Shown piece by piece: positions 2,269 to 55,115 of a DNA stretch of 64,000 nt. The stretch lies in NCBI GenBank assembly GCA_014359475.1, contig JACIZI010000021.1, positions 1-64,000 of the forward strand, in the 5' to 3' direction. Both the position numbers and the translations under genes were made by a program. The first letter of the stretch is position 1, and every line of letters starts with the position of its first letter. Under the pieces are notes generated by a model. That model saw nothing but the letters and a program-made list of their open reading frames with translations. It did no database searches and was not told the origin of the DNA. The DNA is from Marinobacter sp. (GTDB lineage Bacteria; Pseudomonadota; Gammaproteobacteria; Pseudomonadales; Oleiphilaceae).

Positions 2269-2288
2269 GGGGTGAGTCACCTTCCCTG

Positions 2289-4579: not shown

Positions 4580-4588
4580 GGCTTTCAC

Positions 4589-5449: not shown

Positions 5450-5512
5450 GTCCGTGTTACTCCGGCGTTCAGGGTGATGGTTTTGCTGTTCTGTGCGTAG
5501 CGGTCAGTCTAC

Positions 5513-9196: not shown

Positions 9197-9245
9197 TGGT
9201 TCTTCCCTATCGTTGCAACTGTTCCGGAACGTGTGTCAGCAGGCT

Positions 9246-9890
9246 TCAGAAACTTCGTTCCGGTATGGTCAGGATGTCTCCGGGGCGCAATTCGTAGTTG
9301 GTGCTGATATCACCACGCTCCAGAATATCATCCAGCCTGACCGGTATGGCCACCACCTCACCTTTAAGGGGGCGGTACAGCATCGCCTTGTTTCCCGAGG
9401 CAAACGGGCTGAGCCCGCCGGCGCCGAGCACCATGTCCAGGACCGTCATGCCATCCCGGTGCGGGGTCGACGTAGGCTGCCCGACCGCACCGGTGACTCT
9501 GACACGATCCGTAAATTCATGACTGCCCATGGAGGTGACAACAATACTCACCTGGGGTTCCCGGATGTAGGATTGCAGCTCCCTCTCGATATCCTTTGCC
9601 AGCACTTGCGGTGCCTTGCCACTGGCCTGCACATCACCAATCAGAGGCACCGAAATCTTGCCGTCGGGCCGCACCGGCACCGTCACGCTCAGGTCATTGT
9701 TACGCCACACCGACACCCGCACCACATCGGTTGCCCCGATAATGTACTCCTTTGCGGTTTCTGTCTGAGAGGTTTCCAGGGCTTGGCGGATTTTCTCCGG
9801 GGATGACGGCGACTGTGAGGCACAGCCAGCCATCAACACTGTAATCAGAAGGGCAATAAAGCCTTTGGCAGGCAAATACTTCCGTGACAT
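9246..9890 (-). CDS. XrtA system exopolysaccharide export lipoprotein (Wza-like)
   Basis: 214 aa. A lipoprotein signal peptide ends at the lipobox LMAGC (Cys near residue 23). A poly_export domain (YIIGATDVVRVSVWRNNDLS, then VPVRPDGKISVPLIGDV) and one SLBB-type domain (VRVTGAVGQP, then LDMVLGAGGLSPFAS) follow. The family forms the outer-membrane export channel for capsule and exopolysaccharide. It is shorter than Wza, as is normal for the XrtA subgroup. The ATG at 9890 has AGGAA 7 nt upstream, and the gene lies 13 bp after the phosphoglycosyl transferase. Confidence 0.94.
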   Translation of the reverse strand: MSRKYLPAKGFIALLITVLMAGCASQSPSSPEKIRQALETSQTETAKEYIIGATDVVRVSVWRNNDLSVTVPVRPDGKISVPLIGDVQASGKAPQVLAKDIERELQSYIREPQVSIVVTSMGSHEFTDRVRVTGAVGQPTSTPHRDGMTVLDMVLGAGGLSPFASGNKAMLYRPLKGEVVAIPVRLDDILERGDISTNYELRPGDILTIPERSF

Positions 9891-9903
9891 GTTGATTCCT
9901 CGT

Positions 9904-11316
9904 TTACTGAGAGCCTTTCTTGAACAATACCACTTCTACGGTCTGGATTATAACCAGCAGATCCAGCAGCAGGCTCTGGTTCTTGATGTAGTAAAGGTCG
10001 TAGCGGAGCTTTTCCCGCGTGTCTTCCTCGCTCTCGGCGTAGGCGAAGCACAGCTGCGCCCAGCCGGTCAGGCCCGGTTTTACCCGGTGGCGTTCACTGT
10101 AGAACGGGATTTTCTCGGACAACTGCTCGACAAACACCGGTCGCTCGGGTCTTGGGCCCACAAACGCCATGGTGCCGTTCAGTACGTTAAAAATCTGTGG
10201 CAGTTCGTCAATCCGCACCTTGCGGATAACGGCTCCGACTTTGGTGACCCGCGCATCGTTCTTGCTGGCCCACTGGGCGCCGTTTTTTTCCGCATCGGTA
10301 ATCATGGAGCGGAACTTGTGAACCCGGAACAGCTTGTTGTTCAGCCCAACCCGCTCCTGGCTGTAGATCACCGGCGCTTTCCAGCCGTCCTCCAGCTTGA
10401 TGGCGATGGCGGTCAGGAGCATGAACGGCAGGCTGACCAGCAGCAGTACAGACGCGGCAAAGATATCCAGGGAGCGCTTGCCGACGCCGTACACGGAGGA
10501 CACGGTGAAGCCGTCGGAAAACACCAGCCAGCCACGGGTAATCATTTCCAGGGCCACCTTGCGGGATTCCCGCTCATAGAAGCTGGCGCCATCAATGATG
10601 CCGATGCCTTCCATTTTGCACTCCAGCAGGTCGTCCATGGGCAGGCCTTTGCGGCGGTCGTCGACCGCTATCACGATTTCCCGTACCGGATGACGCAGTA
10701 TGTAGTCACGCATGGTGCCGGTGAGTTTGATCAGGTGTTTGTCGTCCAGTTCAATGGGCTCATCGGGAATCGGCACAAAACCTTTCAGCACGAACCCCTT
10801 GCGGTTAAAGGGGCTTTCCAGGTCTTCCAGCAACTGCCGCGCCCGGCGGCCGGCGCCCAGCACCAATACGCGACGTTTGAAGGTATCCTTGCCGACCATG
10901 GCGAAGAACAGCATGCGGGCGATGCCCAGCAGGAAAAACCCGAACACCGCCGAGGAGCTGAGCACGTTGAATGTGCCCAGGTACCAGAACCAGTCACTGT
11001 TGAGGAAATAGGCAAATCCACACAGGGGAATGGCGATAATCAGGCCCATGATGGTACGGAGCATCATACCCGACATGCCCTCCTCCAGCCGGGACTGGTG
11101 CACACCCAGCGCTACCATGATCAGTAGGTTGATCAGGGCGTAGGCAACCACCGAGGGCAGCACGTAAGCCAGATTGGCAAGAAAGAACTGCAAGTCTCCG
11201 AAAAACCTGAAAAATACGGAGAGCCCCAGCGCAAAGCCCAGAACGACAAAGTCGATCAGGCCAAGGATGACGAACGGAAGATGGATATAGTGTCGGAACA
11301 ATCTGACGTGGGCCAC
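9904..11316 (-). CDS. TIGR03013-type PEP-CTERM/XrtA sugar phosphotransferase (polyprenyl glycosylphosphotransferase)
   Basis: 470 aa. Four to five N-terminal membrane segments and a CoA-binding-like domain (RRVLVLGAGRRARQLLEDL) lead to the C-terminal bacterial sugar-transferase domain. Its markers are KRSLDIFAASVLLLV, the YSQERVGLNNKLFRVHKFRS motif, the DELPQIFNVLNG motif and VGPRPERPVFV...KPGLTGWAQ. It starts the repeat unit by moving a sugar-1-phosphate to undecaprenyl phosphate at the inner membrane. The start is a GTG at 11316 with AAGGAG 7 nt upstream. It is the first gene of the operon and follows a 200-bp regulatory gap. Confidence 0.94.
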   Translation of the reverse strand: MAHVRLFRHYIHLPFVILGLIDFVVLGFALGLSVFFRFFGDLQFFLANLAYVLPSVVAYALINLLIMVALGVHQSRLEEGMSGMMLRTIMGLIIAIPLCGFAYFLNSDWFWYLGTFNVLSSSAVFGFFLLGIARMLFFAMVGKDTFKRRVLVLGAGRRARQLLEDLESPFNRKGFVLKGFVPIPDEPIELDDKHLIKLTGTMRDYILRHPVREIVIAVDDRRKGLPMDDLLECKMEGIGIIDGASFYERESRKVALEMITRGWLVFSDGFTVSSVYGVGKRSLDIFAASVLLLVSLPFMLLTAIAIKLEDGWKAPVIYSQERVGLNNKLFRVHKFRSMITDAEKNGAQWASKNDARVTKVGAVIRKVRIDELPQIFNVLNGTMAFVGPRPERPVFVEQLSEKIPFYSERHRVKPGLTGWAQLCFAYAESEEDTREKLRYDLYYIKNQSLLLDLLVIIQTVEVVLFKKGSQ

Positions 11317-22328: not shown

Positions 22329-24419
22329 TCAGGAATCGTTGCCCCGGACCAGTCGCTGAATGCATCTTCCCCAATAGCCTGACGGCGGAGCGCACCAGGC
22401 CTGGCGATGTAACTCGGCGAGCGAGTCCCGGTCTTGCAGGACCTGGCTGAGCTCTGTCGCTGAGAGCGCCTCCGGGCCTTTCTGAAGGCACCGGGATACC
22501 GCGGATTCGAGATGTTTCGCACGCACGCCCTTGCGGTGATCCCGGGCCAGGAACCGGTAAATGCGGTTGAGTTTCGGGCTCAGAACGGCAGCCTCCACCG
22601 GGCTGAGCACGCCGTCATCAGACCGGATCGCCTGGCGGTTCGCCAGGGCATGCTGCAGCACCGGTGGTGGTTCTATCTCCTCCGGTATCAGCAACAGCTG
22701 CCTGTGTTCAAGGGCCTTGCCCAGGCGCTTGCGACTCAGCAGGACGGAGCTGGGGGCTGCCAGTACCAGCGGGATCGCCACAGGCAGGGACCAGAGAAAA
22801 AACAGGGTATCCAGATACCAGGCGAATCCGGACCAGGCAGCACCAATGATCATCAGGGGCGACTGCACCATAAAAGCCCGGGACCAGCCGGTTTCCTCGG
22901 TTCGATTCTGCCCTGCCCAGGTCAGCTTGAGATTCAGCAGCGCGGCAAGCACTGATTTGCTGTGGGCCATCATGCGAATCGGAGCCAGCAGGACGGATAA
23001 TACAATTTCGATGAATATGCTGACCGTCATGGCCAGGCTACCGCCATACTGCCGCGCCAGGCCGTGCAGCCAGGCGTCGGCAAGTGCCAGGAATTTGGGC
23101 ACAAACAACAGGGCCATCGTGCTCAGGGCCAGCCCCAGTGCCCAGTCCGGGTGCCACTCCGGCCAGAGGGGGAAAAGCCCGGCATGCCCCTCCGGAAAAT
23201 AGTTGATCGGTGCCAGGGTCATCCGGGCCGCTTCTATGGTGGTCAGTATCAGAAACCCCAGCCACAGGGGCGAGGAAAGATAGGCCATGACTCCGTTCAG
23301 CATCGCCATGCGATGGGCCAGCCGGAGCCGGCGCTGGAACAGCATGATCCAGAGGTGCTGCAGATTACCCTTGGACCAGCGATGGTCCCGGGCCAGTTCG
23401 TCCGCCAGGGTGGGTGGCGATTCTTCATAACTTTGGGTGAGTTCCGGTTCGAGCCAGACCTCATAGCCGGCCCGCCCCATATAGGCTGCCTCTACAAAAT
23501 CATGGCTCATGATCGGCCCGCCAAAGAGCCCCCTGCCCGGCAGTTTCCGGAGGCCGCAATGGCGCATGAACGGCTCGGTGCGGATGATGGCGTTGTGCCC
23601 CCAGAAGGCGGCATCCCCCATCTGGATGGCGGCCAGACCAGTGGCAAATAACCGGGAATACATGCGGTTGGCGAATTGCTGGACCCGGGCAAACGGCGAA
23701 CAGCCGTTGATGATGGAGGGGGCCGTCTGAAGAATTCCGATGCGGGGCTCACGCTGCATCAGACGGACCATCTTTGTGATGGTGCCGGCTCCCAGCAGAC
23801 TGTCCGCGTCAAGCACGACCATGTAGCGATAACGGCGCCCCCAGCGACGCAGAAAGTCTGCCACGTTGCCACTTTTGTAGTTCAGGTTTACCCGGCGGCG
23901 GCGATAGAACAAGCGCCCGCCCGCCCCCAGTTCCTCGCACAGGCGGTGCCAGGCCGCCTGCTCTGCCAGCCAGACATCCGGATCACGGCTATCGGACAGG
24001 ATGTAGAACTCGAAGTGCTCGATGTTCCCGCTTTGCTCCAGGTCCTGGTAGATGGCTTTCAGGCCGCTGAGCGTCCAGTCAACCGGCTCGTGGTAGACGG
24101 GCATGACAATGGCGGTTTTGGTCAGGGGTGTCTGGCCCAACTCGCTATCGGTGTATCTGCGGGCGAGGCTGTGCCGGTCGCCACCGGACAGGCGCAGCAC
24201 AAATCCGGCCATTGCTGTCCAGAACCCAACCGCGATCCAGGCGTACAGCACGCAAAACAACACCAGCAATCCGAGTTCGATTCCGGTACCGCCGTGGTAT
24301 GGCAGCACCGCAAGAAAAAACCAGGCGGCGACCGCCGTTTGCCCGAGAACCAGCAGGGCCAGAAAGATGCGACGAATCGTTGCGGTGGTTTTCCAGCGGG
24401 ACGGGCCTGGCTCAGTCAT
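22329..24419 (-). CDS. opgH: Glucans biosynthesis glucosyltransferase H (OpgH/MdoH)
   Basis: About 696 aa inner-membrane GT2 processive glucosyltransferase. Two N-terminal membrane segments precede the GT-A domain with MPVYHEPVDWTLSGL, VVLDADSLLGAGT and the terminal RDHRWSKGNLQHLW (the Q/RxxRW motif); five or so membrane helices follow. It polymerises UDP-glucose into the periplasmic glucan backbone. Enterobacterial OpgH is near 850 aa; this protein lacks most of the cytoplasmic N-terminal extension, which in E. coli contributes to cell-size control through FtsZ. The ATG at 24419 overlaps the small upstream gene by 8 bp. The frame extends upstream to 24524 but without support. Confidence 0.93.
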   Translation of the reverse strand: MTEPGPSRWKTTATIRRIFLALLVLGQTAVAAWFFLAVLPYHGGTGIELGLLVLFCVLYAWIAVGFWTAMAGFVLRLSGGDRHSLARRYTDSELGQTPLTKTAIVMPVYHEPVDWTLSGLKAIYQDLEQSGNIEHFEFYILSDSRDPDVWLAEQAAWHRLCEELGAGGRLFYRRRRVNLNYKSGNVADFLRRWGRRYRYMVVLDADSLLGAGTITKMVRLMQREPRIGILQTAPSIINGCSPFARVQQFANRMYSRLFATGLAAIQMGDAAFWGHNAIIRTEPFMRHCGLRKLPGRGLFGGPIMSHDFVEAAYMGRAGYEVWLEPELTQSYEESPPTLADELARDHRWSKGNLQHLWIMLFQRRLRLAHRMAMLNGVMAYLSSPLWLGFLILTTIEAARMTLAPINYFPEGHAGLFPLWPEWHPDWALGLALSTMALLFVPKFLALADAWLHGLARQYGGSLAMTVSIFIEIVLSVLLAPIRMMAHSKSVLAALLNLKLTWAGQNRTEETGWSRAFMVQSPLMIIGAAWSGFAWYLDTLFFLWSLPVAIPLVLAAPSSVLLSRKRLGKALEHRQLLLIPEEIEPPPVLQHALANRQAIRSDDGVLSPVEAAVLSPKLNRIYRFLARDHRKGVRAKHLESAVSRCLQKGPEALSATELSQVLQDRDSLAELHRQAWCAPPSGYWGRCIQRLVRGNDS

Positions 24420-24669
24420 TGTGATGATACCCGATGCTGCCCCGGAGCAAAGGCGGTTGCTGCTCCGGGATAAGCACTTCAGGCAGGTCGAAATAATCGG
24501 GCACAAGTTCCACTGCCCGGGCATAGACCTGCGCCTCCGTTCCGGCCTCCAGTGCAGCTTCCGTCAGGTGCAGGGCCTGGCGGCAATGAGCCGTGGTCAG
24601 TGGAATGCCGCAATCGTCGATATAGAATAAAACCCTCCCCAGTACCTGCCAGCATACCGCTGTCTGCAT
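24412..24669 (-). CDS. Small protein of unknown function coupled to opgH
   Basis: 85 aa, not recognised. The ATG at 24669 has a clear ribosome site (GGGGGA, 7 nt upstream), and the stop overlaps opgH by 8 bp, which argues for a real, translationally coupled gene. It contains a mid-protein helical part (AALEAGTEAQVYARAVELV), a short hydrophobic N-terminus and no signal peptide. A role in OpgH synthesis or regulation is possible because OpgH here lacks its long N-terminal domain; that is only inference from position. Confidence 0.6.
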   Translation of the reverse strand: MQTAVCWQVLGRVLFYIDDCGIPLTTAHCRQALHLTEAALEAGTEAQVYARAVELVPDYFDLPEVLIPEQQPPLLRGSIGYHHND

Positions 24670-24882: not shown

Positions 24883-26424
24883 TCAGCGTTGGTTCGCACG
24901 CAAACCCGTTCCGGGAGGAAGTGAATAGGTCCAGGTTTCCGTCAGCACCTTGCCCTTGAGTTCGAGATAGGCCCGCAACTCCATGGTGGCCTGGGGGGCC
25001 GGGCGCGCCAGCATGGACAGCCGCCAGTGCCCGCTCTCGGGAACATATTCCACAAAATGCTCCAGTACCTCGACAGACTCCCCGCCGGAGACCTTGCTGA
25101 CGACGGCCGCATCCGCCGGGAGTTCGCCCAGTTCACCACCGGCAAAATCCACAATGATCCGGTAGCCTCCCTCTGTCTCGCCGCCACCGATGCGATCGCC
25201 GTCACCGATAAAGGTATTGGCCGCCTGGCCTCCGGGATGCCCGGCAACAGAGGGTCCCCCGAAGGACAGACTGTACTCCAGCCGGTACTGCTTGCCTGCT
25301 TGGATCGCCTGATCCGGTTTCCAGAAAGCCACTATGTTGTCGTTGGTTTCCGCATCGGTGGGAATCTCCACCAGCACAACCTTGCCTGGCCCCCAGTCTC
25401 CTTTCGCTTTTACCCAGGCACTGGGACGCTGCTGGTAACCGGCCTCGGAATCCTGGAACTGGTGGAAGGCCGTGTCGCGCTGGATCAACCCGAATCCGGA
25501 AACCTGTGGGACATGGTGATAACTTAGCTTCAGGTTTGTCGGGTTGATCAGTGGCCGCCAGAGCCATTCACCGGTTTTCCCGTCGTGTATCAGCAACCCG
25601 TCGGAGTCATGTACCTGGGGCCGCCATTCGCCGACCGGTCTGACGCTGTTCTCTCCGTAATAGAACATGGAGGTCAGCGGCGCCAGGCCAAGTTGCTCGA
25701 TATCGTTACGAAAGAACAGTTCCGCGGTTACGTCAATGCGCGTGGTATCCCCCGGAAAAACATCGAACCGGTAGGCACCGGTGATGCTGGGACCGTTCAG
25801 CAGTCCGTAGAGGCGCATGTGGTCACTGTTTGCGGCGGGGCGTTCCAGCCAGAATTCGACAAATCCGGGGAATTCCTCCCCGGAAGACAGCCCGGTATCA
25901 ACAGCGATGCCCCTCGCGGACAGGCCAAAACGCTGATCCCTCGCGACCCCCCGAAAGTAGCTGGCACCGCCAAACACCAGAAACTGGTTGCGAATACCCG
26001 GCCCTTCGAGCGGATAGGTGAGTTTGAAGCCTGCATACCCGAGATCGGCGGGAATTCGCTTGGCCAGCGCCTGATCCGGGTAATTGAAAACCGACTTGTC
26101 GAAGGTGATGGGGTGGCTGCCCTGGAGGTCTACCTGATTAAGTGCCACCGGGTAGGTGTAATACTGGCCCGCCGGCATCATCATGATCTGAAAGCGGGAT
26201 TTGCCCTGTTGCCAGAGGCTCTCTTCGGGGCGAAAGCGGATCTTTTGGTAGTCTTCATAAGGAAGGTTTTTCAGAAAGGCCGGGATCGCAGGCGGAGCCT
26301 GGTATTGGGACTCGGCCAGCGTGCGGGCCTTTTTGACCACATCACCGAACCCGAATGCATGGACCGGACCGGCAAGCAGGCAAAGCAGTAGCAGTGGCGC
26401 AAATCGCGTCTTCCCTGAAGGCAT
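24883..26424 (-). CDS. opgG: Glucan biosynthesis protein G (OpgG/MdoG)
   Basis: About 513 aa periplasmic protein. The ATG at 26424 gives a clean Sec signal peptide (PSGKTRFAPLLLLCLLAG, cleaved after VHA); an ATG at 26460 is an alternative. The mature protein starts FGFGDVVKKARTLAESQY, as in OpgG, and then has LPYEDYQKIRFRPEESLW, ASYFRGVARDQRFGLSARG and HDSDGLLIHDGKTGEWLWRP. It is needed with OpgH for periplasmic glucan synthesis under low osmolarity. The locus order on the minus strand is opgG, small gene, opgH, opgD. Confidence 0.94.
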   Translation of the reverse strand: MPSGKTRFAPLLLLCLLAGPVHAFGFGDVVKKARTLAESQYQAPPAIPAFLKNLPYEDYQKIRFRPEESLWQQGKSRFQIMMMPAGQYYTYPVALNQVDLQGSHPITFDKSVFNYPDQALAKRIPADLGYAGFKLTYPLEGPGIRNQFLVFGGASYFRGVARDQRFGLSARGIAVDTGLSSGEEFPGFVEFWLERPAANSDHMRLYGLLNGPSITGAYRFDVFPGDTTRIDVTAELFFRNDIEQLGLAPLTSMFYYGENSVRPVGEWRPQVHDSDGLLIHDGKTGEWLWRPLINPTNLKLSYHHVPQVSGFGLIQRDTAFHQFQDSEAGYQQRPSAWVKAKGDWGPGKVVLVEIPTDAETNDNIVAFWKPDQAIQAGKQYRLEYSLSFGGPSVAGHPGGQAANTFIGDGDRIGGGETEGGYRIIVDFAGGELGELPADAAVVSKVSGGESVEVLEHFVEYVPESGHWRLSMLARPAPQATMELRAYLELKGKVLTETWTYSLPPGTGLRANQR

Positions 26425-26521
26425 GGTGCAAAACCCCGAAAGTGTCGTTTCGATGGTCATGAATGTACCACCATTCCCCTGAGCCACCGCAAGTGACAAC
26501 TCCGTAAGGCGGCTGGCGGCG

Positions 26522-28949: not shown

Positions 28950-29852
28950 ATGAGCCGCAACACTGACACCATGCCAGGGACACCGCTGGATGCAGACACT
29001 GCCTGGGAGCTCATTCTTGACGCAAGCGGGCAACCAAAAGCAACGGTCAGCTTGCCCGCAAGCAATCTGCCCGCCCTGTGGGCCGGCGCAGATGGCACGC
29101 TCCGGTATCCTTCGCTGGTAAGCGATGTGGCCCGTCAGCTGTTTGATACGTTCCTGCCCCTGCTGGGCAAGGTTCCGGCCGGGCGCAGCTATGTGGTCGC
29201 GCAGATGGGACAGAGTCTGGACGGGCGCATCGCTACGGTGACCGGGGCCTCCCGCTTTATCAATGGTGATGATGGCCTGACCCACCTGCACCGCCTGAGA
29301 GCAGTGTGTGATGCGGTGATTGTGGGGGCCGGCACTGCCGCCTGTGACAACCCGCGACTCACGGTACGACATACCAGCGGCGTAAACCCCGTTCGGGTGG
29401 TCATCGACCGTCATCGCCGCGTGCCGGCACACCATCACCTGTTTACCGACCACGAAGCTCCCACCCTGCACCTGACCGAAGGGCACTACACCGGAGCCGA
29501 CAAGCACCCGTTCCGAGACCACTATACAGAGGTACCCTGCCTGGGGACTGACGAAGCCCCGGCTGAGCCGGATCAGGTTCTGTCGGTATTGCGGGACTTC
29601 GGTTTGCGGCGGGTATTTGTGGAGGGCGGCGGCCAGACGGTGTCCCGCTTTCTGAAGGCCGGCTTGCTGGACCGGCTGCATGTCATTGTGGCACCGATGA
29701 TTATCGGCAGTGGCCGGCCCGCCTTCGAGTTGCCGGAAATTGATGCGCTGGATGATGCCCTGCGCCCGGATGCCCGTTTTGTCAGCCTCGGGTCCGATAT
29801 GTTGTTTGACCTGGCGTTCCCCCCTGCGCCTGCGGTGCGCTCCGCCCGCTGA
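28950..29852 (+). CDS. RibD C-terminal-type (dihydrofolate-reductase-fold) reductase
   Basis: 300 aa. Residues about 75-290 form the RibD_C/DHFR-like domain: VVAQMGQSLDGRIAT, GASRFINGDDGLTHLHRLRA, AVIVGAGTAACDNPRLTVR and VFVEGGGQTVSRFLKAGLLDRLHV. The deaminase half of RibD is missing; an unrelated N-terminal segment of about 70 residues takes its place. The family reduces pyrimidine or pterin-like aminosugar intermediates with NADPH. Its neighbours (PTPS-like, glycosyltransferase-methyltransferase) point to a specialised pathway and not to riboflavin synthesis. Its 3' end overlaps the convergent membrane-protein gene by 71 bp. Confidence 0.85.
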   Translation: MSRNTDTMPGTPLDADTAWELILDASGQPKATVSLPASNLPALWAGADGTLRYPSLVSDVARQLFDTFLPLLGKVPAGRSYVVAQMGQSLDGRIATVTGASRFINGDDGLTHLHRLRAVCDAVIVGAGTAACDNPRLTVRHTSGVNPVRVVIDRHRRVPAHHHLFTDHEAPTLHLTEGHYTGADKHPFRDHYTEVPCLGTDEAPAEPDQVLSVLRDFGLRRVFVEGGGQTVSRFLKAGLLDRLHVIVAPMIIGSGRPAFELPEIDALDDALRPDARFVSLGSDMLFDLAFPPAPAVRSAR

Positions 29853-30738
29853 ACAGCAGCAAGCCGCCGGGGAGGCTCCATAAAAGGTTAACCACACCGT
29901 AGGCCAGACTCAGTGCCACACCCTGCTCTGCCGGCAGTCCCGCGACCGGCCAGAGCACCGCTGCCGCACTTTCCCGCACACCCCATCCTGCCACGGTCAC
30001 GGGTACTACCATGCTCAGCAGCAAAATCGTACCTAAAGCCAGCAACAGTCCGACGGAACCTGTGCCCGCCCAGTTGCCCTGTCCGGCAGCCAGAATCAGC
30101 AACACGCCAAGATAGCCGGCAAGGACCAGTGCGGAACCGGTCAACTGCACGGGCAACTGCGGCCAGCCGAGCAAGGCCCGGCGCAGATCTTTTCGCAGCA
30201 AGTCCAGGTAGTGGCGTACCCGGTTCCTGAACAGCCCGAAAACGACCAGTACCAGCATCCCCACGGCAAGCAGCCAGGCAATGTACCCGCTGCCGTTCAC
30301 CCGCAGCGCCTGAGGCAGGTAGAGAGCCCCACTGATTATGGCGGCGAGGCCAAGCAGCAACTGGCCGGACAACCGTTCGATCATCACCGAATGCAGCGCG
30401 GCCAGCTTTTCGCCGCTGCGCAGCCCTTGCCGCCAGGCCCGGTTGAAGTCCCCGGCCACGCCGCCGGGCAGAACCTGGTTCAGAAAGGTCGCCAGATAGT
30501 ATTCGCGGAACGCCAGGCCCGGCGGAACAGTCACTCCCAGGGCGCCCGAAGTATAGCGCCAGCGCCAGGCAGACAGGGTTACCTGCAGCAGAACGAGCAC
30601 ACCGATGGGCAGCAGGAGCCATAGCGACAAGGCCGACAGGGTAGCGCTGACAGCTCCGGTATCCAGTTGCCAGAACAGTATTGCCAGCACCGCCACCGTG
30701 AGCGCCCAGCGTGCAATCAGCCGCCGGCGGTTAGCCAA
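29782..30738 (-). CDS. Lysylphosphatidylglycerol synthase TM-region (UPF0104)-like membrane protein
   Basis: About 318 aa with roughly eight membrane segments. It has the UPF0104/LPG_synthase_TM pattern: LNQVLPGGVAGDFNRAWR, a conserved MIERLSGQLLL segment and PVTVAGWGVRESAAA late in the protein. The soluble aminoacyl-transferase domain of MprF is absent, so this is a flippase-like module often found beside glycosyltransferases. The start is taken as the TTG at 30738 (GGAG 7 nt upstream), which overlaps the stop of the upstream gene. The 3' end overlaps ribD-like coding sequence on the other strand. Confidence 0.82.
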   Translation of the reverse strand: MANRRRLIARWALTVAVLAILFWQLDTGAVSATLSALSLWLLLPIGVLVLLQVTLSAWRWRYTSGALGVTVPPGLAFREYYLATFLNQVLPGGVAGDFNRAWRQGLRSGEKLAALHSVMIERLSGQLLLGLAAIISGALYLPQALRVNGSGYIAWLLAVGMLVLVVFGLFRNRVRHYLDLLRKDLRRALLGWPQLPVQLTGSALVLAGYLGVLLILAAGQGNWAGTGSVGLLLALGTILLLSMVVPVTVAGWGVRESAAAVLWPVAGLPAEQGVALSLAYGVVNLLWSLPGGLLLFSGRSAPQAQGGTPGQTTYRTRG

Positions 30739-32659
30739 TCCGGGACTCCGGCAGGGCCAGCAGATCGGTATGGCCAACCCGGATCTTCAGCACTCCCGCC
30801 TCTGCCTGGCCGCAGCGGGCCTGATACCACTGTGCAATCGCCGGCTGCTTTTCCGGTTGTTGTTCGCTGGCTGCGGTTTTCCACCCCTCCAGCAGCGCCA
30901 GCTGAAGTGGCGTATTTTCACCGGTCAGTACCCAGTCAGCCGGTTCCGTATGCAACTGATACCCCCGCTTGCGCAGTTCACTGGCCAGTGTTTCCGGTGC
31001 ATCGTGTCCCATGGCGACTCCCATGCCCTTGTCGCGGCGCTGGTGGTCAAGAATGGCACTGCGGACCATCTCATCGGCCTCGGCAGGAGGATCCAGGGAT
31101 ATGGCCCCATTCACGCTCAGCGTAATGAGTACCGCTGCCTGCAGCCGGGCACTGCGGCTGGCCAGAGCCCTTAACCAGTCCCCGGACACCAGGTCGGCCA
31201 GGGCCGCTGCAGTCACCAGATCTGTGCCTTCGGGGATAGCGGAAGACAGTCTCTCGGGCATCAGCTTCTCAACATGAAGCTCCGCGGCAACACCCAGTGC
31301 ACCGGCCCGTTGTCCGGCCTGCTTCAACAGGGACGGGTCCTGGTCTGCCAGCAACCACTTCTGGGGAACCGAGAGGCGGCTGACCAGATATTCCACGTTT
31401 GAACCGGTGCCAGAGCCGAGATCGGCAATGCGGATCGCGCGGCCGCGTTCGCCTGCTTCCCGGTGGAGGTAGCGGAACTGAAGCCATTTATCCAGTGCAC
31501 GGGTGAGCCTGAGACTGCGGGCCTTGTGGTCTTCCGGCTCCCGCAGGGTCAGCCAGTCGGCAGCAAAATGACTGCGCCCTTTTCCGCTCGCTGTATTATC
31601 CAGCAGCCTGGCCAGTGCCTGTGCAGCATCCTGCCAGCTTCGCAGAGTGTTTGCCGTTTGCCGAGCCTGCCCGGCGGCCTGTCCCATTGCCCGGGGATTA
31701 CCCAGCCACTCAGCCAGCCTGCCTTGCAGTTGTGCTGTGTTACCGGCCGGGTACTGGCGGATCCCGGGCCGCTTTCCGGTCCTGGCGAGCGCCCCGCCAT
31801 CGGAACAGATCACCGGCAGGCCGTTGGCAAACGCCTCATCGACCACCATGCCATAGCCCTCGTAGCGGGAGGGCAGTACAAACAGGTGGGCTTCACTATA
31901 TAGCCTGGCCAGTTGTTCTCCGGTGACCTCGCCAGCCAGTGTCACCCGGTTCTCCAGCGCCAGGTCGTGTATCACCTGCCGCACGCGGGCCCCGTACTCC
32001 GGATCCCGGTCAGCAGATCCGGCCAGGGTCAGGTGCCAGGGCCACTCCGCCAACCCGGCAAGCGCTTCCAGCAGGTCCACTTGCGCCTTCCGGGGAGACA
32101 GGTGCGCAACGCACAGGACATGAAACGGCCCGGCGCCCGAATATTCTTTTTTCACAAACGCTGCGGATGCATCCACACCGGGCTCAATCACGGAGATGCA
32201 GGATTCCGGCACGGAAAAATCCCTCAGCCGATTTGCCGTATAAGGACTCGTTGTGATCACCGACGCAACCTGGGCCAGTGCCTGTCTCTCGAGCCTGAAC
32301 AGGTTCTTTCGCCGTTCAGCAGGCAGCCCGGTTTCATCCGCCAGGGGATGATGCACCAGCGCAATCAGCTGTAGCCGTTCCCGGTGAGCTGCCAGCACCT
32401 CCGGCATGGCTCCCATGGCGAGGCCGTCCAATACCACGGGGGCTCCGTCAGGCAGATTCGCGAGTGCCTGGTTCATGGACTGGCGGGCTTTTTCGTCAGG
32501 CAGGGGAAATTGTCCATCCAGGCCTATGCGGTGCACCTGACGGCCGCTGTCCGCCAGCGTTTCCGCCAGTCGTTTCACATACCGGTAGCCGCCGGTGGCC
32601 TGCTCAGGATCTCCGGGAACGATGAAATAACACGCCCGGCCAGCTTCACAGCTTGCCAT
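30731..32659 (-). CDS. Fused GT4 glycosyltransferase - SAM-dependent methyltransferase
   Basis: About 642 aa in two parts. Residues 1 to about 365 form a GT4-like glycosyltransferase (IVPGDPEQATGGYRYVKRLAE; VLCVAHLSPRKAQVDLLEAL; PSRYEGYGMVVDEAFANGLPVI). Residues from about 385 form a class I methyltransferase with motif I as IADLGSGTGSNVEYL and motif II-like LLADQDPSLL. The fusion implies that one product is both glycosylated and methylated. The ATG at 32659 overlaps the PTPS-like gene by 14 bp, and its stop overlaps the membrane-protein start, so the four genes 34061 to 29782 form one operon. Confidence 0.85.
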   Translation of the reverse strand: MASCEAGRACYFIVPGDPEQATGGYRYVKRLAETLADSGRQVHRIGLDGQFPLPDEKARQSMNQALANLPDGAPVVLDGLAMGAMPEVLAAHRERLQLIALVHHPLADETGLPAERRKNLFRLERQALAQVASVITTSPYTANRLRDFSVPESCISVIEPGVDASAAFVKKEYSGAGPFHVLCVAHLSPRKAQVDLLEALAGLAEWPWHLTLAGSADRDPEYGARVRQVIHDLALENRVTLAGEVTGEQLARLYSEAHLFVLPSRYEGYGMVVDEAFANGLPVICSDGGALARTGKRPGIRQYPAGNTAQLQGRLAEWLGNPRAMGQAAGQARQTANTLRSWQDAAQALARLLDNTASGKGRSHFAADWLTLREPEDHKARSLRLTRALDKWLQFRYLHREAGERGRAIRIADLGSGTGSNVEYLVSRLSVPQKWLLADQDPSLLKQAGQRAGALGVAAELHVEKLMPERLSSAIPEGTDLVTAAALADLVSGDWLRALASRSARLQAAVLITLSVNGAISLDPPAEADEMVRSAILDHQRRDKGMGVAMGHDAPETLASELRKRGYQLHTEPADWVLTGENTPLQLALLEGWKTAASEQQPEKQPAIAQWYQARCGQAEAGVLKIRVGHTDLLALPESRIG

Positions 32660-33044
32660 GGTAGCTGGCCCAGGCAATGTGGGATTCGCTCAGGGTTACG
32701 CTGAGCCCGTGGAGCCCCTTCGCGGAGTCTCCGAGCCGTCCTTCCCGGATGGCACTTGCCATGCGGTCAAACACGGCTCTGGCCATGAACTCTGTGGTGG
32801 TATTGCGCCCTTTGAACTCCGGCAGCTCATCCAGATTCTGCATATTAAAGGCACCAAGCACTTCGGACAGCACCTCCGAGGCCAGACCTATATCCACTAC
32901 CAGGTCATTCGCATCCAGTTCCGCACGTTCAAAACTCACGTCCACGACGTAGGTGGCCCCGTGCAGTTTGCGGGCGGGGCCGAAGATCTCACCAGCAAAG
33001 CTGTGGGCGATCATCATGTGGTCACGTACGGTCAGGCTGTACAT
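32646..33044 (-). CDS. 6-pyruvoyltetrahydropterin synthase/QueD-fold protein with altered active site
   Basis: 132 aa, T-fold (PTPS/QueD) length and pattern: IAHSFAGEIFGPARKLHGATYVV at 12-34, NLDELPEF and NTTTEFMARAVFDRM mid-protein, and SESHIAWASYHG near the end. QueD/PTPS enzymes have a zinc site of three His and a catalytic Cys in CxxxHGH. Here His14 and His28 remain, but the third ligand is Ala30 and the catalytic Cys position is Ala24. The Glu of the ETxxxxAxY motif survives. It therefore probably performs different chemistry or only binds a pterin. The ATG at 33044 is well placed after the MDR gene. Confidence 0.83.
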   Translation of the reverse strand: MYSLTVRDHMMIAHSFAGEIFGPARKLHGATYVVDVSFERAELDANDLVVDIGLASEVLSEVLGAFNMQNLDELPEFKGRNTTTEFMARAVFDRMASAIREGRLGDSAKGLHGLSVTLSESHIAWASYHGKL

Positions 33045-33068
33045 GGTAAAAGGTCTCCTTGTCGGTAA

Positions 33069-34061
33069 TCAGTATCGGATACAGTGGCAAAGGGAATCCC
33101 GCTGCCCTGTGGCCAGTTCAAACAGGGTGCGGGGTAAATCCTCAAAGGCAGATTCGGCGTTGACCAGCACGTCCAACTCCGGTGCCTGCAACAGTGACAG
33201 GGCCAGTGCCATCCGGTCCCGGTAACCGTGACGAGGCTGCTGCTGCGGGTTGATCTGGCCGACCTGGCTGCTGCGGATGGTAAGGCGACGGGAATGAAAT
33301 GCTTCGCCGAGCGCCACCGGAGCCTTGCCGGTACCATACCAGCTCATCTCAATCACCCGCCCTTCCATGCCCAGCATTGAAAGCGCCGTGTTGAGGCCTT
33401 CGGCTTTACCACTGGCATGAATCACGATGTCGTGGTCATCCCGGGATTCGTCCGTGGTGAAAGCGAGGCCCAGCGCCTCTGCCGGCTGCCGTCGTGCCTC
33501 GTTGATATCAATCGCGATAACACGCGCACCGGGGATGCGACTGGCCAGCCAGGCAACCAGCAGACCTACGACCCCGCAGCCAATCACGGCAATACGATCT
33601 CCTACCCTGGGGGCTGCATCCCATAGCCCGTTCACAGCGGTTTCCATATTCGCTGCCAGGATGGCCCGGCGCGGGGGCATCCCTTCCGGTAACGGATGCA
33701 CGGCCCCCACAGGCACCCGGTATTCCTGCTGGTGAGGGTACAGGCAGAACACCGGTTTGCGCCGGAGGTGGTCCGGCCCGTCCACGACCTCGGCCACGTT
33801 GGCGTAACCGTATTTGACCGGCCACGGAAAATCCCCCTGCTGGAAAGGGGCCCGCATGGCCTGATACTGGGAGCGCGGTACATTGCCACGGAACACCAGG
33901 GTCTCTGTACCACGGCTGATGCCACTGCAGAGGCTGCGCAATCGCACGGGCGGCCCGGGATTGGTGCCGGCACCGGCCAGGGATCCGTCCACATCGGTCG
34001 GGCGTAATTCTCCACTGAGCGGGCCGGTTGTCCAGAACGCCTGTGTGGTATTCGCTGTCAT
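33069..34061 (-). CDS. MDR-superfamily (alcohol dehydrogenase-like) oxidoreductase, probably zinc-free
   Basis: About 330 aa medium-chain dehydrogenase/reductase. The Rossmann motif is VIGCGVVGLLVAW and the N-terminal segment is SLCSGISRGTE. The usual zinc-ligand His of the GHE motif is replaced (PVKYGYANVAEVV), and no structural-zinc cysteine cluster is seen. This is like the BchC-type MDR subfamily. The ATG at 34061 has a perfect AGGAGG ribosome site; the longer frame to 34163 would overlap the divergent promoter and is rejected. It is the first gene of the four-gene minus-strand operon. Confidence 0.85.
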   Translation of the reverse strand: MTANTTQAFWTTGPLSGELRPTDVDGSLAGAGTNPGPPVRLRSLCSGISRGTETLVFRGNVPRSQYQAMRAPFQQGDFPWPVKYGYANVAEVVDGPDHLRRKPVFCLYPHQQEYRVPVGAVHPLPEGMPPRRAILAANMETAVNGLWDAAPRVGDRIAVIGCGVVGLLVAWLASRIPGARVIAIDINEARRQPAEALGLAFTTDESRDDHDIVIHASGKAEGLNTALSMLGMEGRVIEMSWYGTGKAPVALGEAFHSRRLTIRSSQVGQINPQQQPRHGYRDRMALALSLLQAPELDVLVNAESAFEDLPRTLFELATGQRDSLCHCIRY

Positions 34062-34123
34062 TGTGCCTCCTTGCCCGGGGAATGATAGTGTGGTTACTGA
34101 AGCATATACGCCGGGAACACCCA

Positions 34124-34849
34124 ATGCATTCGCCTGTGTCCACATTTGCAGTGCTGCAGTCACCCTTGCGGGAGCTGGTGGTGGCGGGTATTGCCATTGC
34201 CCTGCTGGCAGCCGGGTCGGGTAGTCTATTGGATCTTTCGCACAAGTTTTACTCTCTGACAGGGGTCATCGCTTTAATATCCGGTGGTCTGATCTGGCGT
34301 TCGGCCCCGACAGGCCGGGACTTTGGAGCTGCAAACCGGGTAACACTGGGACGCGGGGTGCTGGTCATCTGGCTTGTATGCCTGGCACCCTGGGCTCCGG
34401 TGCTTGGTAACTGGCTGTGGCCCTGGGCCCTGCTCTGCCTTCTGGCCCTGTTGCTGGATGGTGTGGACGGTTGGGTTGCAAGGGCTACGGGTACTCGGAC
34501 GGCCTTTGGTGCACGTTTTGATATGGAGCTGGATGCCCTGTTTATTCTGGGCCTGTGCGTGGCCGTTCTTGCCCTGGACAAAGCAGGTGCCTGGGTTCTG
34601 GCAGTCGGGCTGATGCGTTATCTGTTTGTTGCTGCCGGCTGGCTCTGGCGGTGGATGGACAAGCCTCTGCCGGAGAGTTTCCGGCGCAAAACCGTTTGTG
34701 TGTGGCAACTGGTCACGCTGATGGTTGCCATTCTGCCGATAACACCCGCGCTGTTTGCGAACATTACGCTGGCTACCGCCCTGGCGTTACTGAGCTATTC
34801 TTTCATCACAGATCTTCTGTACCTGTATCAGACAAGGAGGGCACCATGA
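34124..34849 (+). CDS. CDP-alcohol phosphatidyltransferase family protein
   Basis: About 241 aa integral membrane enzyme with the complete CDP-alcohol motif D-x2-D-G-x2-A-R-x8-G-x3-D-x3-D (DGVDGWVAR, then GARFDMELD), preceded by ANRVTLGRG. The family joins a CDP-activated lipid to an alcohol acceptor, or similar; the acceptor here is unknown. The ATG at 34124 is preceded by GGGA; an in-frame upstream start at 34028 lies inside the divergent gene. It is divergent from the MDR gene across 62 bp and translationally coupled to the YceI gene (ATGA). Confidence 0.88.
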   Translation: MHSPVSTFAVLQSPLRELVVAGIAIALLAAGSGSLLDLSHKFYSLTGVIALISGGLIWRSAPTGRDFGAANRVTLGRGVLVIWLVCLAPWAPVLGNWLWPWALLCLLALLLDGVDGWVARATGTRTAFGARFDMELDALFILGLCVAVLALDKAGAWVLAVGLMRYLFVAAGWLWRWMDKPLPESFRRKTVCVWQLVTLMVAILPITPALFANITLATALALLSYSFITDLLYLYQTRRAP

Positions 34850-35457
34850 ATACCTTCATGCACCGAATAAGTGGAGTGGTCATTTTGCTGTTGGCCGGCT
34901 TCGCCGCGCCGGCTTCTGCCGAACCGGCCACCTACACCATTGATGACGAACACTTTTCCATGCACTTTGAGGTAATGCACATCGGCTATGCGCCGGTGAT
35001 GGGCATGTTCCGGAAAGTGCAGGGTCAGTTCGAGTATGACGAGGAAACCCGGACCCTGAACTCCGGCTCGCTGGTGTTCCGCAGCAAAAGCGTATTTACC
35101 AATCACGAAAAGCGGGACGACCACCTGCGGGGCAAGGATTTTCTCAACAGCGGCAAGTTCCGGGATATCACCTTCACCATTACCGGCTTTGAAGCCACCG
35201 GGGAGAACACGGGCGTGGTGACCGGCGACCTTACCCTGCTGGGGAAAACACAGCCGGTTGACGTGAATGTGACCCTCAATAAAGCTGCTGAGTATCCTAT
35301 TGGCCATGAGGAATACACTATGGGTTTTACGGCAGAGACCACAATAAAGCGCAGCGACTGGGGCATGAACTATGGTCTGGAGGAATCTCTGGTGGGGGAC
35401 AAGGTAAAACTGCGCTTCGGTTTTGAGGCGATCCGCGAATCCCGGGGCTGGTTTTAA
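34846..35457 (+). CDS. YceI-family periplasmic lipid-binding protein
   Basis: 203 aa. The signal peptide ends at PASAEP (about residue 26). The YceI lipocalin-like barrel starts with ATYTIDDEHFSMHFEVMHIGY and includes SKSVFTNHEKRDDHLRGKDFLN and GDLTLLGKTQPVDVNVTL. YceI proteins bind isoprenoid or other lipid chains in the periplasm. The ATG at 34846 has AAGGAGG upstream and overlaps the phosphatidyltransferase stop. The pairing suggests it handles a lipid product of the cluster, though YceI genes also occur alone. Confidence 0.92.
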   Translation: MNTFMHRISGVVILLLAGFAAPASAEPATYTIDDEHFSMHFEVMHIGYAPVMGMFRKVQGQFEYDEETRTLNSGSLVFRSKSVFTNHEKRDDHLRGKDFLNSGKFRDITFTITGFEATGENTGVVTGDLTLLGKTQPVDVNVTLNKAAEYPIGHEEYTMGFTAETTIKRSDWGMNYGLEESLVGDKVKLRFGFEAIRESRGWF

Positions 35458-49961: not shown

Positions 49962-50086
49962 TGCCTGTCGGGCTTTACCCTTGAAAGCACTCGCTTTGTC
50001 CCCAACTATAGGTTAGTGCGATGCTCCCGCGCGGACGTCCGGCATATACTCACCTTTTCGCGCAACCACATCAGGGAAAGTACTCT

Positions 50087-50704
50087 ATGGGAACCCTCCA
50101 CAAACCGTTTCAACCACGGACTTTCTGGCAGTTAACGTCGCTGATGGCGCTGGTGTTGATGCTCAGCGGCTGCGGCATCAACAACATCCCCACGTACGAC
50201 GAGCAGGTCACCGCGGCCTGGTCCCAGGTGGAGAACCAGTACCAGCGCCGCGCCGATCTGATTCCCAACCTGGTGGAAACGGTCAAGGGTTTTGCGGCCC
50301 AGGAACAGGAAACCCTGACCGCCGTGATGGAGGCCCGGTCCAGGGCCACCTCGATTCAGGTGGACGAGAGCATTCTCAACAATCCGGAAAAGCTGCAGCA
50401 GTTCCAGCAGGCCCAGGGGGAACTGAGCAGTGCTCTGAGCCGACTCATGGCGGTGTCCGAGCGCTATCCGGACCTGAAGTCGAACCAGAATTTTCTGGCT
50501 CTGCAATCCCAGCTGGAAGGCACGGAGAACCGTATCGCGGTCGCTCGCCGCGATTTCATTCAGGCGGTGCAGCGCTACAATACCGAGCTGCGCACCTTCC
50601 CGGGGAAAATCTGGCACAGCCTTCTGTATAGCGATCTGGAGCCGCGCGCCAACTTCGAGGCCACTGCGGAAAATGCCCAGGACGCACCTGCGGTGTCATT
50701 CTGA
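50087..50704 (+). CDS. lemA: LemA family lipoprotein
   Basis: 205 aa. A signal with the lipobox LMLSGC (Cys about residue 29) precedes a LemA four-helix domain: YDEQVTAAWSQVENQYQRRADLIPNLVETVKGFA, SRATSIQVDES, LSRLMAVSERYPDLKSNQNF and IAVARRDFIQAVQRYNTELR. LemA proteins are membrane-anchored; their role is unclear, often paired with TPM proteins. The ATG at 50087 has AGGGA upstream. Its stop overlaps the next start (TGATG). Confidence 0.95.
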   Translation: MGTLHKPFQPRTFWQLTSLMALVLMLSGCGINNIPTYDEQVTAAWSQVENQYQRRADLIPNLVETVKGFAAQEQETLTAVMEARSRATSIQVDESILNNPEKLQQFQQAQGELSSALSRLMAVSERYPDLKSNQNFLALQSQLEGTENRIAVARRDFIQAVQRYNTELRTFPGKIWHSLLYSDLEPRANFEATAENAQDAPAVSF

Positions 50705-52835: not shown

Positions 52836-53449
52836 TGCCGCCGTTCGCCGACCAGCTCAATCTGCGGCTCTGCCATCGCTGCAAGTATGCCTCGCCCATG
52901 GCGGAGGACCCCCGCCACTGTACCCGCTGTCAGGCCCGGCTGCACTACCGCAAGCCGGATGCCATCGCCCGAACCGCGGCGCTCACGCTGGCGGCCCTGG
53001 TTTTCTACATTCCGGCCAACCTGCTGCCCATCATACACACCCGTACCCTGCACCATGATTCCACAACCACCATACTGGGCAGCGTGATGGAACTCTGGCA
53101 GGCCGGGGCCTGGGATATTGCACTGGTCCTGTTCACTGCCAGCGTGGGCGTTCCGGTTACCAAGTTCCTGGCGTTGGGTTATCTTCTGGTGAGTGTACAG
53201 CGGCGCAGCGACCGGTCCCGCAAGGAACGCACCCGGCTTTACCGGCTTCTTGAACTGATCGGATACTGGTCCATGCTGGATGTCTTTGTGGCCGGTCTGC
53301 TCACTGCCCTGGTACAGTTCGGACCATTAGGCGGCATAGAGCCCAGGGCCGGTATTCTTTACTTTGGTCTGGTGGTGGTACTGACCATGATGGCCACACT
53401 GAGTTTTGACCCCCGATTGATCTGGGATACAGGAAGAAGCAATGAGTGA
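52832..53449 (+). CDS. pqiA: PqiA C-terminal-half-like membrane protein
   Basis: 205 aa. It is the second PqiA domain, again with a Cys-rich ribbon (CHRCKYASPMAEDPRHCTRCQARL) and four membrane helices (ALTLAALVFYIPANLLPI; AWDIALVLFTASVGVPVTKFL; GYWSMLDVFVAGLLTALVQFG). The real start is the ATG at 52832, in ATGA overlap with the first half; a longer open frame from 52583 is an overlap artefact. Both ribbons keep four cysteines, so both may bind metal. The end overlaps pqiB by 8 bp. Confidence 0.92.
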   Translation: MMPPFADQLNLRLCHRCKYASPMAEDPRHCTRCQARLHYRKPDAIARTAALTLAALVFYIPANLLPIIHTRTLHHDSTTTILGSVMELWQAGAWDIALVLFTASVGVPVTKFLALGYLLVSVQRRSDRSRKERTRLYRLLELIGYWSMLDVFVAGLLTALVQFGPLGGIEPRAGILYFGLVVVLTMMATLSFDPRLIWDTGRSNE

Positions 53450-55115
53450 CGAGCAGGCAAACACACCGGCCCGACCGGACATCCAGCAGCGACGATGGCA
53501 CGTTTCGCTGGTATGGGTGGTGCCGCTGGTAGCTGCTCTGATCGGGCTGTCCATGCTGATTCGTGAATGGCAGCAGACCGGTCCCACAATCGAGATTCTC
53601 TTTGAGTCCGGCGAGGGGCTCTCGGCGGGCAAAACCCCGGTCCAGTACCGGGATGTCACTATCGGCAGACTGACGGATGTGGCGCTGAGCAAGGATCATT
53701 CCGGCGTGGTTGCCACCGTTCAGCTCGGGAAGGACGGCGAGGCCTTCTTGCGGGAAGACAGCCGCTTCTGGGTTGTCCGTTTGCGGGTCGGGGCATCGGG
53801 GGTTTCCGGGATTGAAACCTTGCTCTCCGGTGGCTACATCGCAGCGGACCCCGGGACATCCTCCGCCACCAAAAAGCGTTTTGAGGGTCTTGAGTCGCCA
53901 CCCCAGATCATCCACGACCCGGCGGGTAGCCGGTTCCTGATTCAGGCTGAAAGCCTTGGCGCCCTGAACGTGGGCTCGCCAATCTATTATCGCAAGGTGC
54001 CCGTCGGCCAGGTGGTTGCCTACGACCTGGCGGATTCCGGTGAGTACGTCAACATCGAGGTATTTGTCTCGGCTCCCCATGACCGGCTGGTCACCAGCAA
54101 CACGAGATTCTGGAACGCCAGTGGCATCGAGCTTGATCTGGGCGCCGGCGGTGTCAACGTCGACATGCAGTCTCTGGTCGCACTGATAAGGGGAGGCCTG
54201 GCGTTTGGCAATCCGTCCGGTGAGCCACCGGAGCAGGCCGCCACCAATGCGAACACCCGTTTTCAGCTGTTCACTGGCAGGGAGCAGGCTCTTGCTCCGA
54301 AAAAAGGGCCTTCACGCAAGATCCAGATGCGCTTCACTCAATCATTGCGCGGCCTTGAGCCTGGCACCGAGGTTGTCTTCATGGGCAAGAAAATCGGCCA
54401 GGTAAGCAGGATCACGCTGGATTACGACCCCGAAGACCAGACCTTCCCGGTCATCGTCGATGCCAACATCTATCCCCGCCTGATGGGTAATGTTTACCAC
54501 CAGCTAGTACAGTCCCCTGAAGGGAAAAAGAACGAGCTTGCGGCCCGGGAGCTGTTTTCAGACCTGGTAACCCAGGGCCTGCGCGCGGAAGCTCGCACCA
54601 GCAACCTTCTGACCGGGAGGCTGTATATTGCGCTGGAGGTCTTTGCGGATGCCGAACCGACCGCCACCGGTGACAGCGACCGGGAGATTGTGATTCCCAC
54701 CCGGCCCAGCGGGCTCGACCGGGCTCAGTCCCAGCTCATTAATCTGGTCGATCGCCTCAACAAGGTGCCGTTTGAAAGCATCACTGCCAATCTTGACAGC
54801 GGTCTGGGGGAGCTGAAACAGACGCTGAGTCAGATAAACCGCGACCTGTTGCCCGCCACGGTCACGACACTTGATGGCATCAACCAGGTAACCGCCCGAC
54901 TGGAGAGGACGATTGCGTCGGCTTCCCGCGCACTCGGTTCGGCGGCTGAAGCCCTGGGTGAAGATTCGCCTGAGCGGCAACGACTGGAAAGCGCCCTGAA
55001 TGAAGTCGAGCAGATGTCGCGGTCTGTCCGGCAGCTTTCGGATTACCTGCGTCAGCACCCGGAAGCCCTGATTCGGGGCCGGAACCAACAGGACAGGAGG
55101 GATCTCAGACCATGA
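53442..55115 (+). CDS. pqiB: PqiB-like MCE/MlaD protein
   Basis: 557 aa. One N-terminal membrane helix (WVVPLVAALIGLSMLIREW) anchors it. Three MCE (MlaD) domains follow at about 40-130, 155-260 and 285-395 (GLSAGKTPVQYRDVTIGRLTDV; LNVGSPIYYRKVPVGQVVAY; GLEPGTEVVFMGKKIGQVSR). The C-terminal region from about 430 is a long coiled coil. PqiB forms a needle of stacked MCE rings for lipid movement across the periplasm. The chain is similar in size to E. coli PqiB (546 aa). Confidence 0.95.
   Translation: MSDEQANTPARPDIQQRRWHVSLVWVVPLVAALIGLSMLIREWQQTGPTIEILFESGEGLSAGKTPVQYRDVTIGRLTDVALSKDHSGVVATVQLGKDGEAFLREDSRFWVVRLRVGASGVSGIETLLSGGYIAADPGTSSATKKRFEGLESPPQIIHDPAGSRFLIQAESLGALNVGSPIYYRKVPVGQVVAYDLADSGEYVNIEVFVSAPHDRLVTSNTRFWNASGIELDLGAGGVNVDMQSLVALIRGGLAFGNPSGEPPEQAATNANTRFQLFTGREQALAPKKGPSRKIQMRFTQSLRGLEPGTEVVFMGKKIGQVSRITLDYDPEDQTFPVIVDANIYPRLMGNVYHQLVQSPEGKKNELAARELFSDLVTQGLRAEARTSNLLTGRLYIALEVFADAEPTATGDSDREIVIPTRPSGLDRAQSQLINLVDRLNKVPFESITANLDSGLGELKQTLSQINRDLLPATVTTLDGINQVTARLERTIASASRALGSAAEALGEDSPERQRLESALNEVEQMSRSVRQLSDYLRQHPEALIRGRNQQDRRDLRP

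Follow-up and report, generated by a model that had tools for sequence, protein, structure and literature searches.

Within a 64,000-nucleotide stretch of Marinobacter sp. DNA (the window; contig JACIZI010000021.1, positions 1 to 64,000), we examined a locus of seven genes that includes a PTPS-like T-fold protein. The seven genes and their strands had been described in an original prediction made from the sequence alone, and both are confirmed by the open reading frames (ORFs) and their Pfam matches.

28950..29852, plus strand: RibD_C reductase-like paralogue (PF01872, 140.9 bits)
29782..30777, minus strand: flippase-like membrane protein of the LPG_synthase_TM / UPF0104 type (PF03706, 113 bits)
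30731..32677, minus strand: GT4 glycosyltransferase fused to an S-adenosylmethionine (SAM) methyltransferase, 648-aa ORF (PF00534/PF13692, ~80 bits)
32646..33044, minus strand: PTPS-like T-fold protein of the SCO6650 family (PF01242, 83 bits)
33069..34061, minus strand: medium-chain (MDR) dehydrogenase, start codon chosen by us (ADH_zinc_N PF00107, 36 bits)
~34124..34849, plus strand: CDP-alcohol phosphatidyltransferase (CDP-OH), start codon chosen by us (CDP-OH_P_transf PF01066, 58.5 bits)
34846..35457, plus strand: YceI-like protein, a predicted periplasmic lipid binder (PF04264, 141.8 bits)

Four of these genes form a minus-strand run from the MDR dehydrogenase through the PTPS-like and GT4-methyltransferase genes to the flippase-like gene, and because they lie close together or overlap, their arrangement suggests a single operon. 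The CDP-OH and YceI genes diverge from this run at ~34124, and the RibD_C gene converges on it from 28950. The RibD_C paralogue is 300 aa long, with an N-terminal extension of ~80 aa and no match to a deaminase domain. The fused ORF matches Methyltransf_25 at 23.7 bits, under the Pfam cut-off of 27, and its methyltransferase half scores 301 bits against a profile that we built from other loci. The MDR dehydrogenase is weakly BchC-like (TIGR01202, 47.6 bits, far under the cut-off of 291), and a structure search of solved proteins returned distant relatives, none of them close. ARAGORN called a tRNA-His at 34953-35050, inside the YceI gene, which is probably a false positive.

Conservation of the unit

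A genome-contig scan with an alignment of the PTPS-like protein found at least 586 relatives, of which the best 80 were kept. To these we added 23 further loci, all 15 positives that a phylum sample gave from other classes of the window's phylum (Pseudomonadota), and 20 of the 62 positives of one actinobacterial order, chosen mainly for long contigs; the resulting 138 loci were searched with family profiles. The first 103 loci served to build the profiles, which leaves only the last 35 as an independent sample. The 80 scanned and 23 further loci may overlap, and every count of 138 includes possible duplicates, a PTPS-like gene that stands alone (L198) and loci truncated where a contig ends.

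The MDR dehydrogenase was found in 136 of the 138 loci, always on the same strand as the PTPS-like gene and within 2 kb of it, GT4 in 135 and the methyltransferase in 129; with the PTPS-like gene, these form a nearly invariant core. The glycosyltransferase and methyltransferase share one gene in the window, as they do in several further lineages, and are separate genes in others. The remaining families are CDP-OH (108 loci), RibD_C (93), the flippase (89), GTP cyclohydrolase II (GCHII, 77), a creatininase-family enzyme (66), YceI (38), an FkbM methyltransferase (38), OpgH (35), OpgG (27) and a sulfatase-like membrane protein (24). The gene set originally proposed holds for its seven members but had missed GCHII, creatininase, FkbM, the sulfatase-like protein, the OpgG/OpgH partners and the SCO6650 structure.

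Among the 15 independent loci from other classes of the phylum, the dehydrogenase is present in 15, the glycosyltransferase in 14, the methyltransferase in 13 and RibD_C in 12. The 20 actinobacterial loci all carry the dehydrogenase, glycosyltransferase, methyltransferase, CDP-OH and flippase, with GCHII in 17 and creatininase in 16; no further recurrent gene was found in these 20 apart from one probable antisense ORF family. Many recurrent ORF families near the loci look like such antisense artefacts and were set aside by eye.

Two close relatives lack the PTPS-like gene, and their GalU regions (19.5 kb each) contain none of the nine core genes; in one of the two, GalU and EamA are ~1.5 kb apart. 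Pairwise distances among nine families correlate at 0.67-0.91, which shows co-inheritance, with vertical and horizontal descent not told apart. Because the genes recur in 138 loci and the two relatives hold no core gene, they form a real unit, beyond chance neighbourhood. The conserved co-occurrence of at least five genes that the original prediction had looked for extends far beyond Marinobacter.

A fortuitous neighbourhood of unrelated housekeeping genes is therefore scarcely credible. Taken one by one, the families are common, GalU and EamA are local neighbours, and an OPG block lies beside GalU in the two relatives without the unit; however, the same set occurs in several arrangements, in several phyla and on an archaeal plasmid, some of its genes are apparently fused, the distances among families correlate, and the counts over 138 loci already contradict an accidental origin. 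GalU (28089) and EamA (35552) were dropped as unit members, as they recur in 11 and 10 of 103 loci, mostly in Marinobacter. Searches of open-access papers turned up no description of the unit, nor one of the wider gene unit around the SCO6650 family and its spread.

A T-fold protein with altered catalytic positions

Members of the PTPS/QueD family use a catalytic Cys, Asp and His and bind zinc through an HGH motif. Aligned to C. elegans PTPS, the window protein has A24, N67 and M68 at the three catalytic positions and A30 at the third zinc His, giving HGA instead of HGH; Ala occupies this zinc position in 95% of 103 loci. It keeps T84, E85 and E120, which we take to have a pterin-binding role. 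The protein matches SCO6650 of Streptomyces coelicolor (PDB 3d7j) in sequence and fold, and its score against the NCBIfam QueD equivalog (39.1 bits) is under the cut-off of 89.25. All three signature motifs given in PMC5041015 are absent from it. The only other PTPS-family match in the same genome is a 283-aa ORF on another contig (C2; L002 1429-2280), possibly a long QueD-type protein.

GTP as the probable source

GTP feeds a few known pathways opened by a cyclohydrolase: riboflavin, folate and other pterins, and deazapurines. Outside Marinobacter, the unit often includes its own GCHII and a creatininase-family enzyme, both of which are missing in the window. Among 79 loci with full flanks, both are present in 40, neither in 29 and one only in 10. 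In the window's family, we examined 17 genomes and found no creatininase; 16 of them, including the two relatives without the unit, have exactly two cyclohydrolase matches. The presence of GCHII and creatininase in the unit elsewhere strengthens the pterin or pyrimidine origin proposed from the window; nothing seen points to the aminosugar-derived product proposed beside it.

We asked which cluster GCHIIs travel with a creatininase, using a switch column chosen beforehand (E. coli Tyr105) and a loop class (the residue before QEGR) defined after seeing the data. One of 77 GCHIIs could not be parsed, and 23 of the 76 parsed have a residue other than Tyr at the switch. Creatininase is present with 22 of these 23, with 37 of the 39 that have the switch Tyr and Ala or Ser before QEGR, and with none of the 14 that have Tyr and loop R (5), D (6), N (2) or H (1). 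The loop rule is an empirical one because D, N and H also deviate from the usual Arg. The SCO6655 type is presumably a GCHII that produces the formyl intermediate. The creatininase that we scored, from S. fungicidicus, reaches 37 bits against an NCBIfam ArfB cut-off of 180 and 141 bits against an MftE cut-off of 172. In Sinorhizobium, the formyl intermediate produced when GTP is opened is deformylated by an enzyme that had initially been annotated as a creatininase (PMC9478397). In L100, L199 and L204, the cluster GCHII carries an N-terminal part of ~155-185 aa without a Pfam match.

The RibD_C paralogue also appears to be additional to housekeeping genes. Two RibD_C genes are present in all four carriers tested (the window's own genome and three others) and one in both non-carrier relatives, so that the window copy is not the sole reductase copy of its genome. 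RibD_C is also found in Microbacterium and Catellatospora units, and in L095 it shares a single open frame with creatininase in an apparent fusion.

These enzymes could instead supply riboflavin by an alternative or auxiliary route of the BrbF kind, since GCHII, creatininase and RibD_C are riboflavin-type enzymes and BrbF is a creatininase-annotated formamidase in riboflavin synthesis (PMC9478397). We regard this as highly improbable, because in the window's own genome RibD, RibBA and RibH are grouped on a different contig, and RibD, RibH and two cyclohydrolases are also present in two relatives that lack the unit. This agrees with the earlier view that a housekeeping role is unlikely. By tblastn, RibH and the DHBP-synthase half of RibBA match none of the 138 loci (riboflavin synthase was not searched), and the glycosyltransferase, methyltransferase and MDR dehydrogenase have no known role in riboflavin synthesis.

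The predicted membrane end of the unit

The CDP-OH of the window has an intact D..DG..AR........G...D...D motif and the CDP-alcohol phosphatidyltransferase fold, and its model is closest to phosphatidylglycerol-phosphate and phosphatidylinositol-phosphate synthases. In L054 it forms a single open frame with YceI, and in L097 with the sulfatase-like protein, both apparent fusions; the former may be two genes, because its frame still contains a stretch resembling a signal and a putative internal start. Of four sulfatase-like proteins scanned, one is above the Pfam Sulfatase cut-off, and the one tried in a structure search matched no solved structure.

Two optional neighbours of the unit lie beyond GalU in the window:

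22329..24524, minus strand: OpgH-like glucan synthase
24883..26499, minus strand: OpgG-like (MdoG) protein (PF04349, 590 bits)

The 35 loci with OpgH show several arrangements and compare with <1 expected, on a rough estimate for a single-copy gene and ~20 kb of a 4 Mb genome; OpgH is absent from the 20 actinobacterial loci. The OPG link is weak as an argument from Marinobacter, because the OPG-GalU block is also present in the two relatives that lack the unit.

A membrane-linked product is not the only way to read these genes. The unit may make a soluble, secreted pyrimidine or pterin glycoside (a signal, cofactor or antibiotic), with CDP-OH, flippase and YceI as accessories and a product that is not lipid-linked. 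We consider this unlikely, yet a serious contender. It is favoured by the 15 loci from other classes of the phylum, 14 of which lack CDP-OH and flippase while keeping the dehydrogenase, the PTPS-like gene and mostly the glycosyltransferase, methyltransferase and RibD_C, and by the presence of the PTPS-like gene in 21 plasmid records. However, CDP-OH and flippase occur in 20/20 actinobacterial loci and in 70 and 58, respectively, of the 80 scanned loci (the best of at least 586), and CDP-OH is apparently fused to YceI and to the sulfatase-like protein. The membrane-linked, glycosylated and methylated product of the original prediction therefore gains from CDP-OH, flippase, YceI and the two apparent fusions, and loses generality with the proteobacterial loci that lack CDP-OH and flippase.

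Distribution and probable mobility

Loci with the unit are found in Proteobacteria, Actinobacteria, Acidobacteria and Gemmatimonadota and, distantly, on a Haloarcula plasmid, where the PTPS-like protein is just 32% identical. The window protein is matched in 23 of 194 genomes of its order (6 of these at only 28-33% identity), and the gene is present in 17 of 369 genomes of the class, 27 of 398 of the phylum sample, and 62 of 150 sampled genomes of the actinobacterial order of Actinomadura litoris. We inspected eight neighbourhoods among the plasmid records and found the unit in seven (Streptomyces, Peteryoungia, Microbacterium, Haloarcula, Methylosinus, Thiodictyon and Palleronia) and the gene alone in one. 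The unit is probably horizontally mobile.

The lone gene is on a Streptomyces anthocyanicus plasmid (L198 10001-10426), with the other unit genes not nearby. The Haloarcula unit (L201) has a Gfo/Idh/MocA-aldo/keto reductase fusion and a weakly sulfatase-like protein (3919-5889 and 5979-6848). Seven of the unit genes persist, at low identity, in three genomes of ~1 Mb (L182-L184), an indication that the product is of value even where the genome is small.

A proposed pathway

We propose, with a probability of about 0.6, that these genes are a dedicated and probably mobile unit that turns a GTP-derived pyrimidine or pterin into a glycosylated, methylated and perhaps lipid-linked compound. We infer the product, the reactions and their order from the gene families, and we are less sure of the lipid linkage than of the GTP origin. 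GCHII would open GTP; many cluster GCHIIs would stop at the 5-formylamino-pyrimidine nucleotide, which the creatininase-family enzyme would deformylate. Since Marinobacter has neither a dedicated GCHII nor a creatininase, its housekeeping cyclohydrolase may directly supply 2,5-diamino-6-ribosylamino-pyrimidinone phosphate. The RibD_C paralogue would then reduce the ribosyl to a ribityl chain, a step that would have to be skipped or borrowed in most actinobacterial units seen, which have no RibD_C. The PTPS-like protein could bind the pyrimidine or a derived pterin and carry out a reaction other than that of PTPS/QueD, the MDR dehydrogenase may oxidise a side-chain hydroxyl, and GT4 and the methyltransferase would add a sugar and a methyl group. 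At the membrane, the CDP-alcohol transferase is predicted to link the compound to a phosphatidyl or similar lipid, the flippase to move it outward, and the YceI, sulfatase-like and OPG proteins to handle it in the periplasm.

Several observations weigh against this proposal. None of the 20 loci sampled from the actinobacterial order has RibD_C alongside, so the reduction step is not universal; nor is lipid linkage, given the 14 of 15 loci without CDP-OH and flippase. One distant PTPS group, found in the same gene context, has retained an H-x-H metal motif. Most proteobacterial cluster GCHIIs retain the switch Tyr, 9 of the 14 GCHIIs without creatininase also deviate from the usual loop Arg, the Ala/Ser class was set post hoc, and the GCHII classes track large clades, with cases that lack phylogenetic independence. 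The three informative fusions (L095, L054 and L097) are each found on a single metagenome-assembled contig.

If the proposal is true, a further GTP pathway would explain the existence of SCO6650 and of the unusual cyclohydrolase SCO6655, and would correct the '6-carboxytetrahydropterin synthase' annotations of the SCO6650 family, seen in many of the 21 plasmid records; the unit would also offer a set of genes with which to look for the compound. A bolder version, which we hold to be speculative and doubtful, is a new class of envelope lipid common to Gram-negatives, Gram-positives and some archaea: a phosphatidyl-linked, glycosylated, methylated aminopyrimidine or pterin made from GTP, which would be flipped outward and carried by YceI, with the sulfatase-like protein as a transferase decorating periplasmic glucans or a surface polymer.

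Other features of the window

On the minus strand, positions 1156-11316 hold XrtA/PEP-CTERM-type exopolysaccharide genes, with FemAB-like, chain-length determinant and EpsB-type transferase matches above NCBIfam cut-offs and tyrosine kinase and glycosyltransferase matches under them. MamQ-like (50021-50704) and PqiB-like (53442-55115) matches are also under NCBIfam cut-offs.

Comparison with known systems

Huimycin-type pyrrolopyrimidine clusters use GTP cyclohydrolase I and deazapurine enzymes. None of these was noticed among the recurrent neighbours of the unit, where no profile search was aimed at them. The description of such clusters does mention a PTPS/QueD-type enzyme and a glycosyltransferase, a resemblance to the unit (PMC7439116). 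With PTPS/QueD proteins (COG0720), the window protein shares the T-fold, a PF01242 match above cut-off and T84/E85/E120, but it lacks the catalytic Cys, Asp and His and one zinc His. The S. coelicolor pair SCO6650 (PDB 3d7j) and SCO6655 differs from the window unit, which is without a dedicated GCHII.

OpgB/LtaS-type enzymes transfer phospholipid headgroups to periplasmic polymers. The unit resembles such systems in having a recurrent sulfatase-like membrane protein and OpgG/OpgH near a CDP-alcohol transferase, and differs in that its sulfatase-like proteins pass the Pfam cut-off in only one of four cases and gave no structural match. Finally, the archaeal and BrbF openings of riboflavin synthesis, in which GTP is converted to a formyl intermediate that is acted on by a formamidase and a reductase, have the same first three reactions as those predicted for the unit. 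The unit departs from them in its later genes, in the location of the riboflavin genes elsewhere and in the one creatininase scored, which is under the ArfB cut-off.

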